Virus record (IMG/VR): IMGVR_UViG_3300021433_000003
Span: 1-64,000 of that record
Reading direction: 5' to 3' (one strand)
Length of the DNA stretch: 64,000 nt
Source of the DNA: a virus
Shown: one piece after another, positions 2,894-55,168 of the stretch
Layout: each line of letters starts with the position of its first letter
How positions within the stretch are numbered: the first letter of the stretch is position 1
Notes under the pieces: generated by a model
Told to the model about the DNA's origin: nothing
Databases searched by the model: none
What the model saw: the letters and a program-made list of their open reading frames with translations, nothing else
Position numbers and translations under genes: made by a program

Positions 2894-3464
2894 GTTGGCT
2901 CTCGTCGGCGAGCGCCCGGCCACGCCAGACCCCGATGCTATGGCAGAGGCGTCCTACGCCTTGGATGTCGCCGAGCGTGAAGCGCATCCGCTGGCGGCTC
3001 CCGACGACATAGTGGCGGCCTTGCGGGCGCAGTTAAGAGAAACCGCGACCATCGCCAGTACCGCGATCGATGACGCCAATGCGGCGCGGGCGCGGGAGGC
3101 CGAGGCGGTAGCCAGCATCGATCAGATTCGTACCTCGGCCCGCGCCGCCGCCGCCGCCAAGGACGCCGAAGCCGACAAAGTGCGGGCAGAGGCGGCGGCG
3201 GCTATCGCTGCGGCGCAGCATCGCGAGCGCTCGGCGGCGGCGAGCGCGGTTGCCGCCGGGATCGCGCGACAGGTTTCACTCGGGCTCGCCCATACATTCG
3301 CCTTCCTGGCAGACCGCGCGCCGGTGTTGCTGACCCTGATCGGGGCTTTCGTGCTGGCCCGCGCGATGCTCCCGCGACCCGATGCCTATCAGCTCGCCGA
3401 ACTGGCGATCTACGGCGGTGTCGCGGTCTTGCCTGCGGTCTGGCTCAGCTTGAGGAGGGGATGA
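2877..3464 (+). CDS. Coiled-coil membrane protein, 195 aa
   Basis: Residues 35-120 are very rich in Ala, Glu, Arg and Asp with heptad character and are predicted to form a long coiled coil. A hydrophobic segment follows at about 148-165 (LLTLIGAFVLARAML) and a second at about 178-192 (GGVAVLPAVWLSL), leaving a short basic C-terminus (LRRG). The arrangement is a cytoplasmic or periplasmic coil anchored by two C-terminal membrane helices. This could be a virion membrane-interaction protein or a lysis accessory. No family was recognised. It overlaps both neighbours, which is typical of this tightly packed operon. Confidence 0.65.
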   Translation: MPRKTRLALVGERPATPDPDAMAEASYALDVAEREAHPLAAPDDIVAALRAQLRETATIASTAIDDANAARAREAEAVASIDQIRTSARAAAAAKDAEADKVRAEAAAAIAAAQHRERSAAASAVAAGIARQVSLGLAHTFAFLADRAPVLLTLIGAFVLARAMLPRPDAYQLAELAIYGGVAVLPAVWLSLRRG

Positions 3465-3604
3465 TGCAGAAAGACACATCGGGGACCCTGTGGTCGAGCG
3501 CCGGAGACGCGACAGTCAATTTGGCGACGCAGATCGGCAAGAGGGTCGTCGATAAGCGCCCCCCAAGCGAGAAGCCGGTGCCGTCCGGGCGAGGCGCGCA
3601 ATGA
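3461..3604 (+). CDS. Small hypothetical protein, 47 aa
   Basis: This short frame starts at ATG ATG (3461), overlaps the preceding stop by 4 bases, and lies 4 bases after a GAGGAGGGG ribosome-binding site. It ends in an ATGA junction with the next gene, so it fills the gap between two confident genes with perfect spacing. The product is polar and basic at the C-terminus (KRVVDKRPPSEKP) and starts MMQKDTSGTLWSSAGD. No function recognised. Confidence 0.55.
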   Translation: MMQKDTSGTLWSSAGDATVNLATQIGKRVVDKRPPSEKPVPSGRGAQ

Positions 3605-3786
3605 AATCCAAGCCACGCACCAAGGCCGGGAAGCAGTCGAAGATGCATGCGGTCATGCACGAGTACAAAACCGGAGCCCTCAAATCCAGTTCCGGCTCCC
3701 CCGTAAAGAGCCGGTCGCAAGCTATCGCTATCGGCATGTCCGAAAGCGGGCAAGGCCGAAAGACCAAAGCAAGGAGAAAATCATGA
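3601..3786 (+). CDS. DUF6496-like small basic protein, 61 aa
   Basis: The sequence has the pattern of the DUF6496 family: VMHEYKTGALKSSSGSPVKS, followed by SRSQAIAIGMSE, flanked by Lys/Arg-rich ends. This family is short, basic and common in phages and alphaproteobacteria; its function is unknown to me. The strong positive charge would fit nucleic-acid binding, which is inference. The gene starts with ATG overlapping the previous stop and ends just before the first of the secreted proteins, with which it overlaps by 4 bases. Confidence 0.7.
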   Translation: MKSKPRTKAGKQSKMHAVMHEYKTGALKSSSGSPVKSRSQAIAIGMSESGQGRKTKARRKS

Positions 3787-40715: not shown

Positions 40716-41208
40716 GCATTGGTGGGTCGGCGGCCCTAAGGCGGCACCAGTAAAAAATCGCCTACTTCGGCATATCGACATAGATAATGTCGGCTGCTGG
40801 AATTGGACGGGGGCCACAAAGAACGGATATGGGTCTATAACCATCGGTTCAGCGTCAGATGGCACAAGACATTCGGAATCTACTCACCGGGCGTCGTACT
40901 TGGAATTCAAGGGCGACATCCCCGCAGGAATGTTCGTGTGTCACAAATGCGATAACAAGTTGTGCATAAACCCAGATCACCTATTCGTAGGGACGAACCG
41001 CGATAATATTGCCGATTGCATCAACAAAGGATTATTTGGAAATCACAAAGGATCTGCCAATTCACAAAGCACGCTCACTGACGATGACGTGCGGAAAATA
41101 CGGTCATCACCCCTAAGTCAGGCTGAATCACTGGCCGCATCGCTCGGCGTTACCCGTGGTCACGTTCTCAAGATTATGAAGGGCGAGAGATGGGCACACT
41201 TGTCGTAA
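40699..41208 (+). CDS. HNH homing endonuclease with C-terminal HTH, 169 aa
   Basis: HNH_3-type pattern: VGCWNWTGATKNGYGSITIG, STHRASYLEFKGDIPAGMFV, CHKCDNKLCINPDHLFVGTN with the H, CD and NPDHL signatures. The C-terminal VRKIRSSPLSQAESLAASLG, VTRGHVLKIMKGER is a helix-turn-helix used for DNA recognition. Free-standing, with flanking genes overlapping both ends. Likely a mobile selfish gene. Confidence 0.8.
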   Translation: MTAMAEHWWVGGPKAAPVKNRLLRHIDIDNVGCWNWTGATKNGYGSITIGSASDGTRHSESTHRASYLEFKGDIPAGMFVCHKCDNKLCINPDHLFVGTNRDNIADCINKGLFGNHKGSANSQSTLTDDDVRKIRSSPLSQAESLAASLGVTRGHVLKIMKGERWAHLS

Positions 41209-50993: not shown

Positions 50994-51008
50994 CGCGGGC
51001 GACTGTGT

Positions 51009-51020
51009 ATCAAATTTGAT
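51009..51020. promoter_or_regulatory. Palindromic operator upstream of the Xis-like gene
   Basis: ATCAAATTTGAT is a perfect 12-bp palindrome 16 bases before the start codon. On the minus strand TTGCCA and TACACA flank it with a 17-base spacer, a possible promoter, so a dimeric protein bound here would block it. Confidence 0.45.
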
Positions 51021-51162
51021 TGTTGCTGGCAATGGCGTTCGCCGACGACGGTTGCAATCGACTGTTTAGGCTGGGGCCATGTGCTCCTCCGGCTAGGCCG
51101 GGTGGGGGGAACGAGGAACCCTCAGGCTAAATAGCCGACTGCAACCCTAGAGGAGCAAGGCG

Positions 51163-51204
51163 ATGTACGAACAGCGTCGCGGCCGGCGCGGCAAGCGCCA
51201 CTAA
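51163..51204 (+). CDS. Tiny basic peptide ORF, 13 aa
   Basis: ATG with an excellent AGAGGAGCAAGG ribosome-binding site. Encodes MYEQRRGRRGKRH. The signal is strong but the peptide very short; may be a leader that couples translation into the following gene. Confidence 0.3.
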   Translation: MYEQRRGRRGKRH

Positions 51205-51210
51205 AGACAG

Positions 51211-51633
51211 ATGCCGCCGCTCCTTCCATCAGGGCCGCAAACACCGCCGCTTCCCGTCGCGGGAGCCGGCACCTCTCCGGGTCAGCCCCCGTTCGGTTCC
51301 TCCCCGGTTACGATGCCGACCCCCAATCGCGGCGCCGAAGCGTCCGGCATGGCTCTGGTGAAGGGCGCGTATGACATGCTTGCTAAAGCCCTTCCGGGGC
51401 TTGGTTTTGGAACCAAGCCCTCGGAAGCGGTTCGCAAGGCAATGGATCTCCTCGCAAAACTGCCGGAACTCGCCAGTTCGGTCACGCCGGGCGCGCAGAA
51501 TGCCGGCATGGAACAATTCTTGATGGAGCGTCGGCAGATATCGCCGCTCCTCGCCCAACTCGCCGCCGCGCAGGGCGGAGGCGCCGGGGGCGCTCCCCCA
51601 GGCGGCGCCGCTCCGCCCGCGCCAGGAGGATGA
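51211..51633 (+). CDS. Hypothetical Pro/Gly-rich virion-cluster protein, 140 aa
   Basis: The first 40 residues and the last 25 are Pro/Gly/Ala-rich and disordered. The middle (LVKGAYDMLAKALPGLGFGT, AVRKAMDLLAKLPELASSVT, AGMEQFLMERRQISPLLAQL) is helical. Possibly a head accessory or part of the scaffold. No family recognised. Confidence 0.5.
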   Translation: MPPLLPSGPQTPPLPVAGAGTSPGQPPFGSSPVTMPTPNRGAEASGMALVKGAYDMLAKALPGLGFGTKPSEAVRKAMDLLAKLPELASSVTPGAQNAGMEQFLMERRQISPLLAQLAAAQGGGAGGAPPGGAAPPAPGG

Positions 51634-51636
51634 TGA

Positions 51637-51879
51637 ATGTCGGCATTCTGCCTCGCCGTTCACCGCAAGGGATCGATCACCTGTTTCGGCCATGAGGACA
51701 TGGCGGCGGCAGTGGCGGCGATGAAAGCGCTGCCCGACGATCCCGAAGTTATCGATGTGAAGGTTATCGATATGGCGACGGGAGAAGAGGCGAAGTCCGC
51801 GCCAGCGAAGTCCGATGCGCCGGCGGCTTCCGGCAACATGGCCGTGGGGAAGACCCCGGCTCCAGGAGATAAGTCATGA
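51637..51879 (+). CDS. Small hypothetical protein, 80 aa
   Basis: SAFCLAVHRKGSITCFGHED, MAAAVAAMKALPDDPEVIDV then an Ala/Lys-rich tail. Small alpha/beta fold. ATG at 51637; overlaps next gene by ATGA. Confidence 0.55.
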   Translation: MSAFCLAVHRKGSITCFGHEDMAAAVAAMKALPDDPEVIDVKVIDMATGEEAKSAPAKSDAPAASGNMAVGKTPAPGDKS

Positions 51880-52046
51880 GCACCGACGTATTCCATAATC
51901 CCACGAAGACGGTGCCGAAATCGGATTCGCGCATCGTCAGCCAGGATTTCGAGAAACAGGACATCGGCGCGCGCAAGTCGCACATGCCGTCGGTCTCAAA
52001 AAATGACCTGACGATTCGTCACGTCGGCGGATCGAAGGGCGCCTGA
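51876..52046 (+). CDS. Small hypothetical protein, 56 aa
   Basis: ATG overlaps the preceding stop. STDVFHNPTKTVPKSDSRIV, QDFEKQDIGARKSHMPSVSK. Polar, probably extended. Sits between two head-module genes, just before the scaffold. Confidence 0.55.
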   Translation: MSTDVFHNPTKTVPKSDSRIVSQDFEKQDIGARKSHMPSVSKNDLTIRHVGGSKGA

Positions 52047-52048
52047 TC

Positions 52049-52678
52049 ATGCCGCTGGTCGAGATCGACGACTCCGAGCTGAATCAGTTGCGCACTCTGG
52101 CGCAACGCTATCCGACCGCCGAGAATTTCCAGAAGGTCTTCGGCAAGATCCTCGAAAGCCCGGATCGGCTGGAGGCGCTGAAGCTCGTCAAAAAGCATTT
52201 CCCCGATGTGGCCCTGCCGGAAATCGACACAGCGGAGGCCGCGTCCCGGCCGCTTCTCGACAAGATCGCCGCCCTTGAAGCGCGCTACGACGAAGACCGC
52301 AAGCGCGAGCAGGAAGAGCGCGAGAAAGAGAAGCAGGAGGCTCAGGAGCGGCGCGTCAAGAACACCATTACCTCGGCGCACAAGCGGTTGCGCGAGGAAG
52401 GGTGGGACGAGGACGGCATCGCCAGGATCGAAGACCTTATGCGCGAGCGCGGCATCGGCGATTACGACGTGGCATCGGCCTATGTGCGCTCGCAGATGCC
52501 CGCCCCATCGCCGATCGCCCAATCATACGCCGGCAAGGATCTGAACTGGTTCAATCCGAGCGAGGCCGAAGTTGATCATTCGCTGTTGATGAAAGATCCG
52601 GCGAAATACAAGAGCCAGATGATCACAAAATTCGTCGCTGATAAGGCTAACGGCAACCTCCGCGAATGGGCGGCATAA
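52049..52678 (+). CDS. Scaffolding-like protein, 209 aa
   Basis: Highly charged and helical, with a central coiled coil (LDKIAALEARYDEDRKREQE, REKEKQEAQERRVKN) flanked by helices (LRTLAQRYPTAENFQKVFGK, HKRLREEGWDEDGIARIEDL) and a C-terminal part rich in aromatic residues (YAGKDLNWFNPSEAEVDHSL). Directly before the capsid gene, this is the usual place and character of a scaffold. No signature motif. Confidence 0.6.
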   Translation: MPLVEIDDSELNQLRTLAQRYPTAENFQKVFGKILESPDRLEALKLVKKHFPDVALPEIDTAEAASRPLLDKIAALEARYDEDRKREQEEREKEKQEAQERRVKNTITSAHKRLREEGWDEDGIARIEDLMRERGIGDYDVASAYVRSQMPAPSPIAQSYAGKDLNWFNPSEAEVDHSLLMKDPAKYKSQMITKFVADKANGNLREWAA

Positions 52679-52681
52679 GGG

Positions 52682-53290
52682 ATGGGCTCTCCAGCCGCCA
52701 GGATCTACACCTTCCAGTGCCGCCGCTGTGGCGGGGACTTCTTCAAGAAGGAGTCCTATTTAACTGCGTATCGGAAACAGCATCAGAGAGATCCCCTGTA
52801 TTGTTCCCGAGAATGTGCTGGGATTTCGATCCGCCTGAGTTTGCCGCCAGAATTCATTTGCGGGCATTGCGGCAAGACCGCTAGCCGTAAGCGTGTTGAC
52901 GAACGCGGGCGTTCCCGTGGGTTTCAATATAATGCGCGGTATTGCTCGAGAGCGTGCGCTGCCGACGCAAAGCGGTCTGGATATGTCACCGGCGAAGGGT
53001 ATCGGGCGTTTAAGAATGGTGGCGGCAAAAGGATTCTAGAGCATCGCCAAGTTATGGAGCAGCGTTTGGGCCGTCCCCTGCTTCGTTACGAAAATGTCCA
53101 TCACAAAGACGGCAATCGTTTGAATAACGATCCAGCGAATCTGGAACTGTGGAACACATCTCAGCCGTGTGGGCAGAGAGTAGAAGACAAGATCGAGTTC
53201 TGCCGGTCTTTATTAGCAGAATATGGGCAACTTCCAGGAATGCTAAGTATAGCCGACACGGCGCTTGGCTACCTGTCAATAGGAGGGTAG
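52682..53290 (+). CDS. HNH homing endonuclease with zinc knuckles, 202 aa
   Basis: Two or three zinc knuckles first (QCRRCGGDFFKKESYL, PLYCSRECAG, FICGHCGKTASRKRVDERGR, RYCSRACAADAKRSGY). Then the HNH nuclease: ILEHRQVMEQRLGRPLLRYE, NVHHKDGNRLNNDPANLELW with the HH-N-H residues. It starts MGSP, and its last bases contain the AGGAGG ribosome-binding site and run into the capsid gene. See findings: it appears to have invaded the 5' end of the capsid gene. Confidence 0.85.
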   Translation: MGSPAARIYTFQCRRCGGDFFKKESYLTAYRKQHQRDPLYCSRECAGISIRLSLPPEFICGHCGKTASRKRVDERGRSRGFQYNARYCSRACAADAKRSGYVTGEGYRAFKNGGGKRILEHRQVMEQRLGRPLLRYENVHHKDGNRLNNDPANLELWNTSQPCGQRVEDKIEFCRSLLAEYGQLPGMLSIADTALGYLSIGG

Positions 53291-53297
53291 TCCAATT
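53281..53297 (+). promoter_or_regulatory. Ribosome-binding site and probable AUU start of the capsid gene
   Basis: AGGAGG at 53281-53286, an 8-base spacer, then ATT at 53295-53297. The frame from ATT reads IPIPGTGVVPSSGGIFNELV without interruption. The next conventional start (GTG 53319) lies 32 bases from this site and would remove the first eight residues. Confidence 0.5.
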
Positions 53298-54323
53298 CCG
53301 ATCCCTGGAACAGGTGTAGTGCCCTCAAGCGGGGGTATATTTAACGAATTGGTTGGCCTCACACGCAGAGCGTTCGTCCCCGTTGTCGTTCGGAACATTT
53401 ACTTTGCCGCTCCGTCGCTGTTCATGCTGATGGGCTCGGCGCAGCGCTCCGCCGGCGGTCTCAACCAGATTACCATTCCGGTGCAGGGGCAGCCGATGGT
53501 GCAGGGGGCGTGGACCTCCTATGCCGGCAACTTCAACAAGCCGCAGGTGATCCCCGGCGTCCAGCCGTCTCAGTTCAACACGGCGTATTTCACCGTTCCC
53601 GTACCGCTGGTGCTGGGCGAGGCGCTGTTGCAGTCGACCGAGACGATCGTGCCGATCCTCGACGTTCGCATGAACGATGTCTACGCGACGACGGTTCAGC
53701 AGCTCGCCTCGGTGCTGTTTACGAATAATTCCAACAGTCCCTTGATGCCGTCCGGCTTTATCGAGGCGTTCGATAACGGGACCAACGTTGCGACTTACGG
53801 CGGGATCAACCGGCTACAATCCGGCAACCAGTTCTGGCAGGGCAATTATTTCGCCAGCACCACATCTGCGCCGCTGGTCAATTCGCGCGCCGCTTGGTCG
53901 TCTTATCTGATCCAGGTGACCGACCTCGCTGGCGGCGAGGCTCCTGACTACGTGATCATGTCGCCGTCGGACTACGCCACCTTGGCCGCGCAGTTCATCG
54001 GGACCGAGACGATGTTCGTCCGCCCCGGCGGGGCATACTCGATGGACACGAACGCGCGCTCCGGCTTCCCGAACCTCAACATCAACGGCGTGCCGTTCTA
54101 TCTCGATCACTGGTGCCCCAAAGGCACGGTGATCATGTCGAACAGCAAATACACCTCGATGTACATATCCGAGGATGCGAGTTTCGATTTCTCCGGCTTC
54201 TATTCGCTGATCCCGCTCGGCCAGCTCGCCCAGGTCGGCGTGATGATCCTCGGCGAGAATGTGATCACCTCTAAGCCCTCGACGGGCGCGATCTTTACCG
54301 GGCTGACCGGAGGAGCATTCTGA
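53295..54323 (+). CDS. Major capsid protein, 342 aa from AUU
   Basis: Beta-rich protein with the size and position of a HK97-type major capsid protein, following scaffold: FVPVVVRNIYFAAPSLFMLM, GSAQRSAGGLNQITIPVQGQ, YVIMSPSDYATLAAQFIGTE, MFVRPGGAYSMDTNARSGF, ASFDFSGFYSLIPLGQLAQV and GVMILGENVITSKPSTG. If GTG at 53319 is used the protein is 334 residues. Its normal start codon seems to have been taken over by the upstream HNH gene (which begins MGSP, while this frame reads GSPIPIPGTG just upstream). Overlaps the next gene by a TGATG-type junction. Confidence 0.75.
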   Translation: MPIPGTGVVPSSGGIFNELVGLTRRAFVPVVVRNIYFAAPSLFMLMGSAQRSAGGLNQITIPVQGQPMVQGAWTSYAGNFNKPQVIPGVQPSQFNTAYFTVPVPLVLGEALLQSTETIVPILDVRMNDVYATTVQQLASVLFTNNSNSPLMPSGFIEAFDNGTNVATYGGINRLQSGNQFWQGNYFASTTSAPLVNSRAAWSSYLIQVTDLAGGEAPDYVIMSPSDYATLAAQFIGTETMFVRPGGAYSMDTNARSGFPNLNINGVPFYLDHWCPKGTVIMSNSKYTSMYISEDASFDFSGFYSLIPLGQLAQVGVMILGENVITSKPSTGAIFTGLTGGAF

Positions 54324-55168
54324 TGATTGGAGGGCCGGGAATCGCGCTACCTTATCCCGCTAATCCGTATCCGGTTCCGCTGCCGCCCGGCCTGAGTTCG
54401 GCCGCTTGGTCGAACCAAGTCTATATGACGCCGGGCGAGACCTTCAATCTGCCGCCGGGCAAATGGGGCATCGTCACCCCGGCCGGCACTTACATCCAAT
54501 TCCTTGACCCGGTCTCGACCACCTGGCAGCCGCTCACCACGACGATCGCCTATCACGAGGTCGTTTCGGACGGGCAGAATTTCCGGGTCGCCAACCTTTC
54601 CGGCATTCCGCAACCGACGTTGACGATCGGCGGCACCAACACCGGCTACACGCAGGGCAATGCGAGCGTCACCGCTGGGACCGGCGGCTCGACCTGGCGG
54701 GTGCTGGTCGACGGAAAGATGGGTACTCCGGTAATCGGCACCGACAAGAACGGCGTCACCGGCGGCACCAATTGGGTTTTGCCGCCAACGGTGTGGATAC
54801 AGGCCCCGCCCGCCGGCGGCATCCAGGCAACGGCCCTGGCGACGGTCTCCGGCGGCGCGGTCAACGCGATCACCGTGCAGGCCTCCGGTGCCGGGTATGC
54901 GTCGGCGCCGGGTGTCGTGCTGATCCCGAACCCGAACGATCCGAATATCGGCACGATCACAATCCCGTCGATCACCATTCCGCTTGCAGCGGCTGCCGGT
55001 ACTATCACCGCGATGATCATGGTTCTGCCCGGCGATCATGTCGCTTCGGCGCCGACGATGACGGTGGCCGGCACCAATACGGCGGTCGCGACCGCGACCT
55101 CTACATTGGTGGCGGCTGACGGCACTTCCGCGACGGTGTGGATTCAGGCGCTCGGCGGCATCTCCTGA
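54323..55168 (+). CDS. Virion protein with GSGY-repeat segment, 281 aa
   Basis: ATG shares its A with the capsid stop. N-terminal half is a small beta domain (AAWSNQVYMTPGETFNLPPG, WGIVTPAGTYIQFLDPVSTT). Residues 165-215 contain ATVSGGAVNAITVQASGAGY, ASAPGVVLIPN, a repeat type also seen in the hub at 59458 and the adaptor-like protein at 57565. Likely capsid decoration or head-tail joining protein. Confidence 0.6.
   Translation: MIGGPGIALPYPANPYPVPLPPGLSSAAWSNQVYMTPGETFNLPPGKWGIVTPAGTYIQFLDPVSTTWQPLTTTIAYHEVVSDGQNFRVANLSGIPQPTLTIGGTNTGYTQGNASVTAGTGGSTWRVLVDGKMGTPVIGTDKNGVTGGTNWVLPPTVWIQAPPAGGIQATALATVSGGAVNAITVQASGAGYASAPGVVLIPNPNDPNIGTITIPSITIPLAAAAGTITAMIMVLPGDHVASAPTMTVAGTNTAVATATSTLVAADGTSATVWIQALGGIS

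Follow-up and report, generated by a model that had tools for sequence, protein, structure and literature searches.

Textbooks treat AUU and AUC as rare start codons, recorded in a small number of bacterial genes under tight control. The Escherichia coli gene pcnB reportedly starts at AUU. infC is described as IF3-controlled, with an ATT start in E. coli and an ATC start in Streptomyces, and the same source describes Streptomyces sigR as starting at an IF3-repressed GUC (PMC5472188). Staphylococcus aureus cvfC1 is described as having an AUU start with an extended Shine-Dalgarno sequence (SD), the AUU being conserved among staphylococci (PMC13009471). Belinky et al. (2017) give frequencies of 1 in 61,358 AUG starts for AUG-to-AUU switches and 1 in 5,080 for GUG-to-AUU switches, and describe AUG conservation as strongest in highly expressed genes and SD compensation for GUG and UUG (PMC5622118). 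No report of AUU or AUC starts in phage capsid genes was found in the open-licence PMC literature.

The window analysed here, a 64,000-nucleotide stretch of a virus record of 65,422 bases, contains a major capsid protein (MCP) gene that very probably starts at an AUU, judging from comparison with its relatives. This gene resembles infC and pcnB in its probable use of AUU or AUC as a start codon; however, infC and pcnB serve housekeeping or regulatory roles in bacteria and are controlled at initiation, whereas here a major structural gene of a phage is concerned, in which the codon has changed repeatedly. The combination of a non-canonical start with a strong SD is shared with cvfC1, where the SD is conserved, but the cvfC1 AUU is fixed among staphylococci while the capsid codon switches between close relatives. 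As in sigR, the non-canonical start is a possible control point, although the IF3 effect was shown for sigR, whereas GUC-type codons were not found in the phage MCP family and any IF3 sensitivity there would be hypothetical. A weak start accompanied by a stronger SD also recalls the prokaryotic switches of Belinky et al., among which AUU is very rare, in contrast to the six AUU/AUC changes found here in 125 MCPs.

The gene order at the capsid locus is scaffold-like gene, HNH gene and capsid gene, all on the + strand. The scaffold-like gene (52049..52678) is assigned a function by position only; it had no PHROG match, but homologues of it accompany 130 of the 133 MCP clusters compared, and its protein is 46% and 53% identical to those of the relatives L018 and L017, respectively. 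An HNH_3 homing-endonuclease-like gene (52682..53290) occupies the scaffold/capsid gap. It is an ATG...TAG open reading frame of 202 aa (N-terminus MGSPAARIYT..., stop TAG at 53288-53290) that matched phrog_20891 (E 1e-21) and scored 30.3 bits against Pfam HNH_3, above the curated cut-off of 24.8. Counted from the ATT, the MCP gene (53295..54323) encodes 342 aa and was identified by homology, profiles and predicted fold: it scored 83.5 bits with NCBIfam NF033394 (capsid_maj_Podo), above the cut-off of 80, matched phrog_9953 (E 1e-10) and shares 33.7% identity over 98% with an annotated major capsid protein. An HK97 fold was predicted, the top solved match being the cyanophage A-1(L) capsid (E 8.6e-11), from a model with a pLDDT of 75 built with a deeper alignment (the first model had a pLDDT of 29). 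Only two annotated phage records matched, and two scans of genome_contigs returned no prophage relatives. At 54321-54325 the capsid stop overlaps the next gene as TGATG, which suggests coupling on the downstream side too.

The capsid frame contains an in-frame TAG (53280..53282, +), which limits upstream starts and leaves 12 nt open before the ATT (53295..53297, +); after the TAG it reads E-G-S-P-I-P-I-P-G-T-G-V-V-P. The initial annotation had stated that no ATG or GTG lies near the capsid ribosome-binding site and that AGGAGG stands 8 bases 5′ of an ATT, and both statements were confirmed. The first ATG, GTG or TTG in frame is the GTG at 53319..53321 (+), codon 9, and AGGAGG (53281..53286, +) lies within the last HNH codons at 8 bases from the ATT, with an anti-SD duplex energy of -10.7 kcal/mol. 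The AUU start proposed in the same annotation is strongly supported, as 132 other MCP clusters have their start codon in alignment with the ATT, and five of these clusters likewise have AUU or AUC at this position. The perfect AGGAGG would thus direct initiation at AUU 53295 to give (f)Met-PIPGTGVVPSS.... Initiation at GTG 53319, with the protein beginning MPSSGG... and the preceding codons untranslated, would have the merit of using the first conventional in-frame start. It is nevertheless very unlikely, given that the SD duplex of this GTG is worth -4.8 kcal/mol against -10.7 for the ATT, that residues 1-8 would be lost, among them P2, G5 and G7, which are invariant or nearly so among 71 MCPs, and that the AUU/AUC relatives L067, L103, L168 and L170 have no conventional in-frame start within 30 nt. 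As in the infC/pcnB class, the conserved N-terminus lacks a conventional start in the window and in these four relatives, and the window has an SD at a suitable distance.

The comparison set was assembled from relatives found in successive rounds (nineteen viral relatives, then 64 by profile, then 80 of 169 by a second profile). It comprised 246 loci with a match reaching the N-terminus, reduced to 146 distinct loci and 133 clusters at 95% nucleotide identity; pattern-selected loci are included, and L101 was left out. Two clusters with mixed start codons were counted by their longest member, and 13 rows aligned one codon early had their start moved on by one codon. The tree omits eight short rows and holds 125 MCPs.

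Across these clusters the N-terminus is well conserved: codons 1-7 read start-P-x-x-[GN]-x-G in 118 of 133, and the motif MP[IL]PG.G is common to most relatives, with one- or two-residue deviations in a few lineages (MAVLGGTG, VAFPLAGTG). The nearest relatives by MCP are L018 (89% identical), which has an HNH gene in the same slot and begins ATG-CCA-ATT (MPIPGTG), and L017 (88%), which has none and begins GTG-CCT-CTT (MPLPGTG). The MGSP- at the HNH N-terminus and the GSPIPIPGTG of the upstream capsid frame, both reported in the initial annotation, can be read directly. From them it had been proposed that the capsid protein originally began MGSPIPIPGTG and that its gene was invaded after codon 4. 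Neither part of this proposal holds: GSP occurs near the N-terminus in 0 of 132 other clusters, the HNH-less relative with which it was to be compared (L017) begins without GSP, and the HNH gene sits in the scaffold/MCP gap, not within the capsid gene. The TCCA noted at both junctions is present, but it carries no weight as evidence, since 62.5% of random pairs of equal-length stretches drawn from the window share a 4-mer; it is shared by chance. Because no other cluster begins MGSP and the starts align with the ATT, the AUU would occupy the ancestral start position, with only the codon changed, and the MGSPIPIPGTG ancestor is unsupported.

An MGSPIPIPGTG protein would also arise if the HNH gene were the reading frame of a self-splicing intron whose removal joined ATGGGCTC to TCCAATTCC. 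Phage capsid introns with an endonuclease ORF are known (described for LittleE, PMC3706429), and the frame joined by splicing would be open. However, an Rfam search of 51000-55000 gave nothing matching a group I or group II intron up to E 5, the HNH ORF fills the entire insert, and none of the break points permitted by the TCCA gives a U before and a G at the end of the intron. No relative has an MGSP start, and AUU and AUC starts are found without any insert, so that splicing of this kind has a negligible probability. A group I intron with an endonuclease ORF was accordingly rejected, there being no catalytic RNA match and neither suitable splice sites nor a restored protein seen in relatives.

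The start codons of the 133 MCP clusters were ATG in 75, GTG in 31, TTG in 21, ATT in three and ATC in three. Homology scans alone, counted without the window, gave 108 clusters with 59 ATG, 29 GTG, 16 TTG, three ATC and one ATT. Besides the window, ATT was found in L067 and L103 and ATC in L097, L168 and L170, and no in-frame ATG, GTG or TTG lies between the upstream stop and the ATT or ATC in any of these five; L101, truncated to 18 aa by the end of its contig, also has ATT. The L067 MCP is 51.6% identical to that of the window and has its ATT at the equivalent position with no insert, its scaffold gene ending 26 nt before. On the tree of 125 MCPs, ATT accounts for three changes and ATC for three, six when taken jointly, and TTG for 14. 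In L097 and L170, which belong to different clades, an out-of-frame GTG lies five bases 5′ of the ATC (cGTGycATC).

A pattern scan for ATT, ATC or ATA at the start position gave 17 matches, seven of them MCPs: L093, L101 and L103 with ATT, and L095, L097, L102 and L105 with ATC. L093 is the virus of L067, L102 and L105 are the viruses of L168 and L170, and L097 recurs in a second dataset as L095, 100% identical over 6540 nt. A control scan using the same pattern with nine U-centred codons (CTH/GTH/TTH) returned no MCP in 56 matches. Where the aligned position holds a valine or leucine codon it is invariably GTG (31/31) or TTG (21/21), although GTG makes up 36% of the valine codons and TTG 17% of the leucine codons within the same genes. 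The empty control and the exclusive use of GTG and TTG argue that the ATT/ATC position is read as a start codon and is not a tolerated or internal hydrophobic residue.

The weak starts are accompanied by strong SDs. AGGAGG was present in 3/3 ATT, 18/21 TTG, 9/31 GTG and 1/3 ATC clusters, and in 1/75 ATG clusters, and mean anti-SD energies were -7.4 for ATG, -9.3 for GTG, -10.2 for TTG, -11.0 for ATT and -9.4 kcal/mol for ATC. After correction for relatedness, of 11 independent pairs 7.1 linked the weak start (TTG, ATT, ATC) to AGGAGG and 0.0 showed the opposite (median p 0.016); AUU and AUC taken alone gave five pairs and were not significant, ATC having AGGAGG in one of three. The initial annotation suggested that the AUU could keep capsid expression low or regulated; the strong SD of the window argues for compensation of its AUU, and such compensation would leave the capsid start free to vary among AUG, GUG, UUG, AUU and AUC. 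The AGGAGG also bears on whether the ATT of the window might be an ATG misread in sequencing or assembly. The ATT is known from one contig, an exact search of viral_contigs having found no second copy of the junction; yet a hexamer typical of weak starts and seen in a single ATG cluster is present in the window, and five other clusters, drawn from separate datasets, have ATT or ATC at the equivalent codon, which makes an error quite improbable. No tRNA or initiator-tRNA variant was detected in the window or in eight loci, and no phage-borne IF3 in the record of the window.

The relaxation of the start codon appears specific to the capsid gene. At the same loci the scaffold-like gene starts with ATG in 85 cases, GTG in six and TTG in one, and discordant pairs were split 33 to 4 (p 1.1e-6); in this control 34 of 128 genes had no single assignable start, and two ATC calls (at an internal IPEIDAAAP) were discarded by eye. 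For the gene downstream of the MCP an ATG is usually available (43 loci, not fully resolved). As the scaffold-like gene nearly always has ATG and an ATG is usually available downstream, the weak start can be assigned to the capsid gene itself. The contexts of TTG and ATT starts are more structured than those of ATG starts (-24 to -25 versus -19 kcal/mol, kinship ignored), which would fit a dependence on upstream translation; the extra structure would lower expression unless coupling opens these contexts.

A capsid start must yield hundreds of product copies, and a near-cognate codon is therefore unexpected there. Six independent AUU/AUC shifts in one phage gene suggest that a gene can be highly expressed from a near-cognate start when its SD is strong, and the occurrence of AUG, GUG, UUG, AUU and AUC in one orthologue provides a natural series in which the trade-off between start codon and SD could be measured. 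Gene callers limited to ATG, GTG and TTG truncate such capsid proteins or misplace their starts. If the AUU makes capsid synthesis IF3-dependent, it would constitute a translational timing switch in phages. Overproduction of IF3 is described as reducing re-initiation and blocking M13 growth in E. coli (PMC2268962), a precedent of sorts for an IF3-sensitive phage coat gene.

A gap of at least 250 nt separates the scaffold-like and capsid genes in 25 of 130 clusters, and the junction is an HNH hotspot that has been invaded repeatedly. All seven slot ORFs tested exceeded the HNH_3 cut-off, and relatives carry them on either strand, those of L080, L066, L133 and L114 being on the opposite strand. 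The site is polymorphic, being empty in L017 and filled in the window and in L018. The HNH gene of the window is, from its domain and this pattern of occupancy, a probable homing endonuclease gene, with cleavage and homing as predicted activities. Free-standing phage HNH genes are described from intergenic gaps with HNH-less relatives (PMC3706429, PMC10448857), and the HNH gene of the window is like them in both respects. Unlike them, it ends close to the next start: in all same-strand loci identified by phmmer (10/10) the HNH gene stops 1-13 nt short of the capsid start, which would place terminating ribosomes on or near the capsid SD. In the window the HNH stop falls between the SD and the AUU, so ribosomes finishing the HNH gene would stand over the ribosome-binding site of the capsid gene and probably favour re-initiation there. 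Two further endonuclease-like frames were noted: a second HNH_3 gene in the same record (40882-41007, +; 47.7 bits, in a 191-aa open frame), and, just before the scaffold-like gene of L018, the nearest HNH-bearing relative, an ORF (3017-3634) resembling a GIY-YIG endonuclease by eye.

A further alternative is an HNH-capsid fusion produced by +1 frameshifting where the HNH gene stops (GGG TAG TCC), the frames being one base apart and an SD-like sequence lying at the site. But relatives have no N-terminal extension, and in HNH-less ATT/ATC relatives the start is isolated, with a stop 9-12 nt upstream; the chance of such a fusion is vanishingly small. Initiation at an AUU in the ancestral position, directed by AGGAGG, with the HNH gene in the preceding gap coupling its termination to capsid initiation and codon freedom bought by the SD, is in our judgement likely to be right as a whole, and we hold it with considerable confidence.

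As to the cause of the AUU, the initial annotation proposed that the HNH insertion had displaced the original start. Two relatives offer some encouragement: L168 (ATC, no HNH) retains 20 nt of an earlier MCP 5′ end, ATGCCACTTCCGGGCATCGG, 69 nt before its ATCCCACTCCCCGGAATCGG, and in L103 the HNH frame contains MPVPG upstream of its core. HNH genes were also present in 2/3 ATT clusters (Fisher p 0.012, on three cases only and with L193 dropped as being of the same lineage as L290). Against this, inserts of at least 250 nt occurred as often with ATG (14/75) as with non-ATG starts (11/55; p 1.0), four of six ATT/ATC clusters have no insert, and no MCP 5′ remnant was found in the window, so that displacement by the HNH gene is an improbable origin for this AUU. 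HNH insertion as a general cause of weak starts was rejected once all inserts were counted. An HNH gene is not needed for a non-ATG start, being absent from L067 (ATT) and from L097, L168 and L170 (ATC), nor is it sufficient, as L018, L169 and L021 keep ATG. In the search for upstream MCP 5′ remnants L168 alone was convincing; a match in L274 lay 1.2 kb upstream, and the reverse-strand background was three matches. Start displacement can thus happen in the family, the remnant in L168 pointing to an older capsid 5′ end there. The remnant (ATG..., at about 2932-2951 of its locus) opens a short ORF that ends in the new SD.

How the codons change can be followed in close MCP pairs. In the 12 pairs with different starts, divergence in codons 2-9 exceeded that in the remainder of the gene (0.219 versus 0.104) and was almost wholly synonymous; the 30 pairs with the same start showed no such excess (0.056 versus 0.071). 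The close pairs share members; a hand-picked list of less overlapping pairs, in which some members are still repeated among the same-start pairs, gave p 0.003. Where the start codons of a close pair differ, the leader is replaced, and in 3/9 pairs examined upstream homology stops at the scaffold end and returns at the capsid start. Start codons seem to move in blocks with the leader, through recombination at the junction and not by point mutation alone.

These substitutions might reflect a capsid 5′ edge that is itself the target of the HNH endonucleases. Phages would then escape by varying codons 2-9 synonymously, by shifting the start within the limits of GUG, UUG, AUU and AUC at the price of a stronger SD, and by exchanging the leader together with the start and opening codons as a single block from phage to phage. 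The almost purely synonymous excess in codons 2-9 of different-start pairs favours this idea, as does the similarity, by eye, of ATT/ATC 5′ ends across distant capsid clades. The presence of an insert does not accompany non-ATG starts, however, and escape from the endonuclease is best regarded as a tentative and rather doubtful explanation. In the three pairs whose homology is interrupted between the scaffold end and the capsid start (L159/L160, L093/L080 and L142/L193, with L264/L080 repeating one of these), one partner has an insert of about 730-810 nt.
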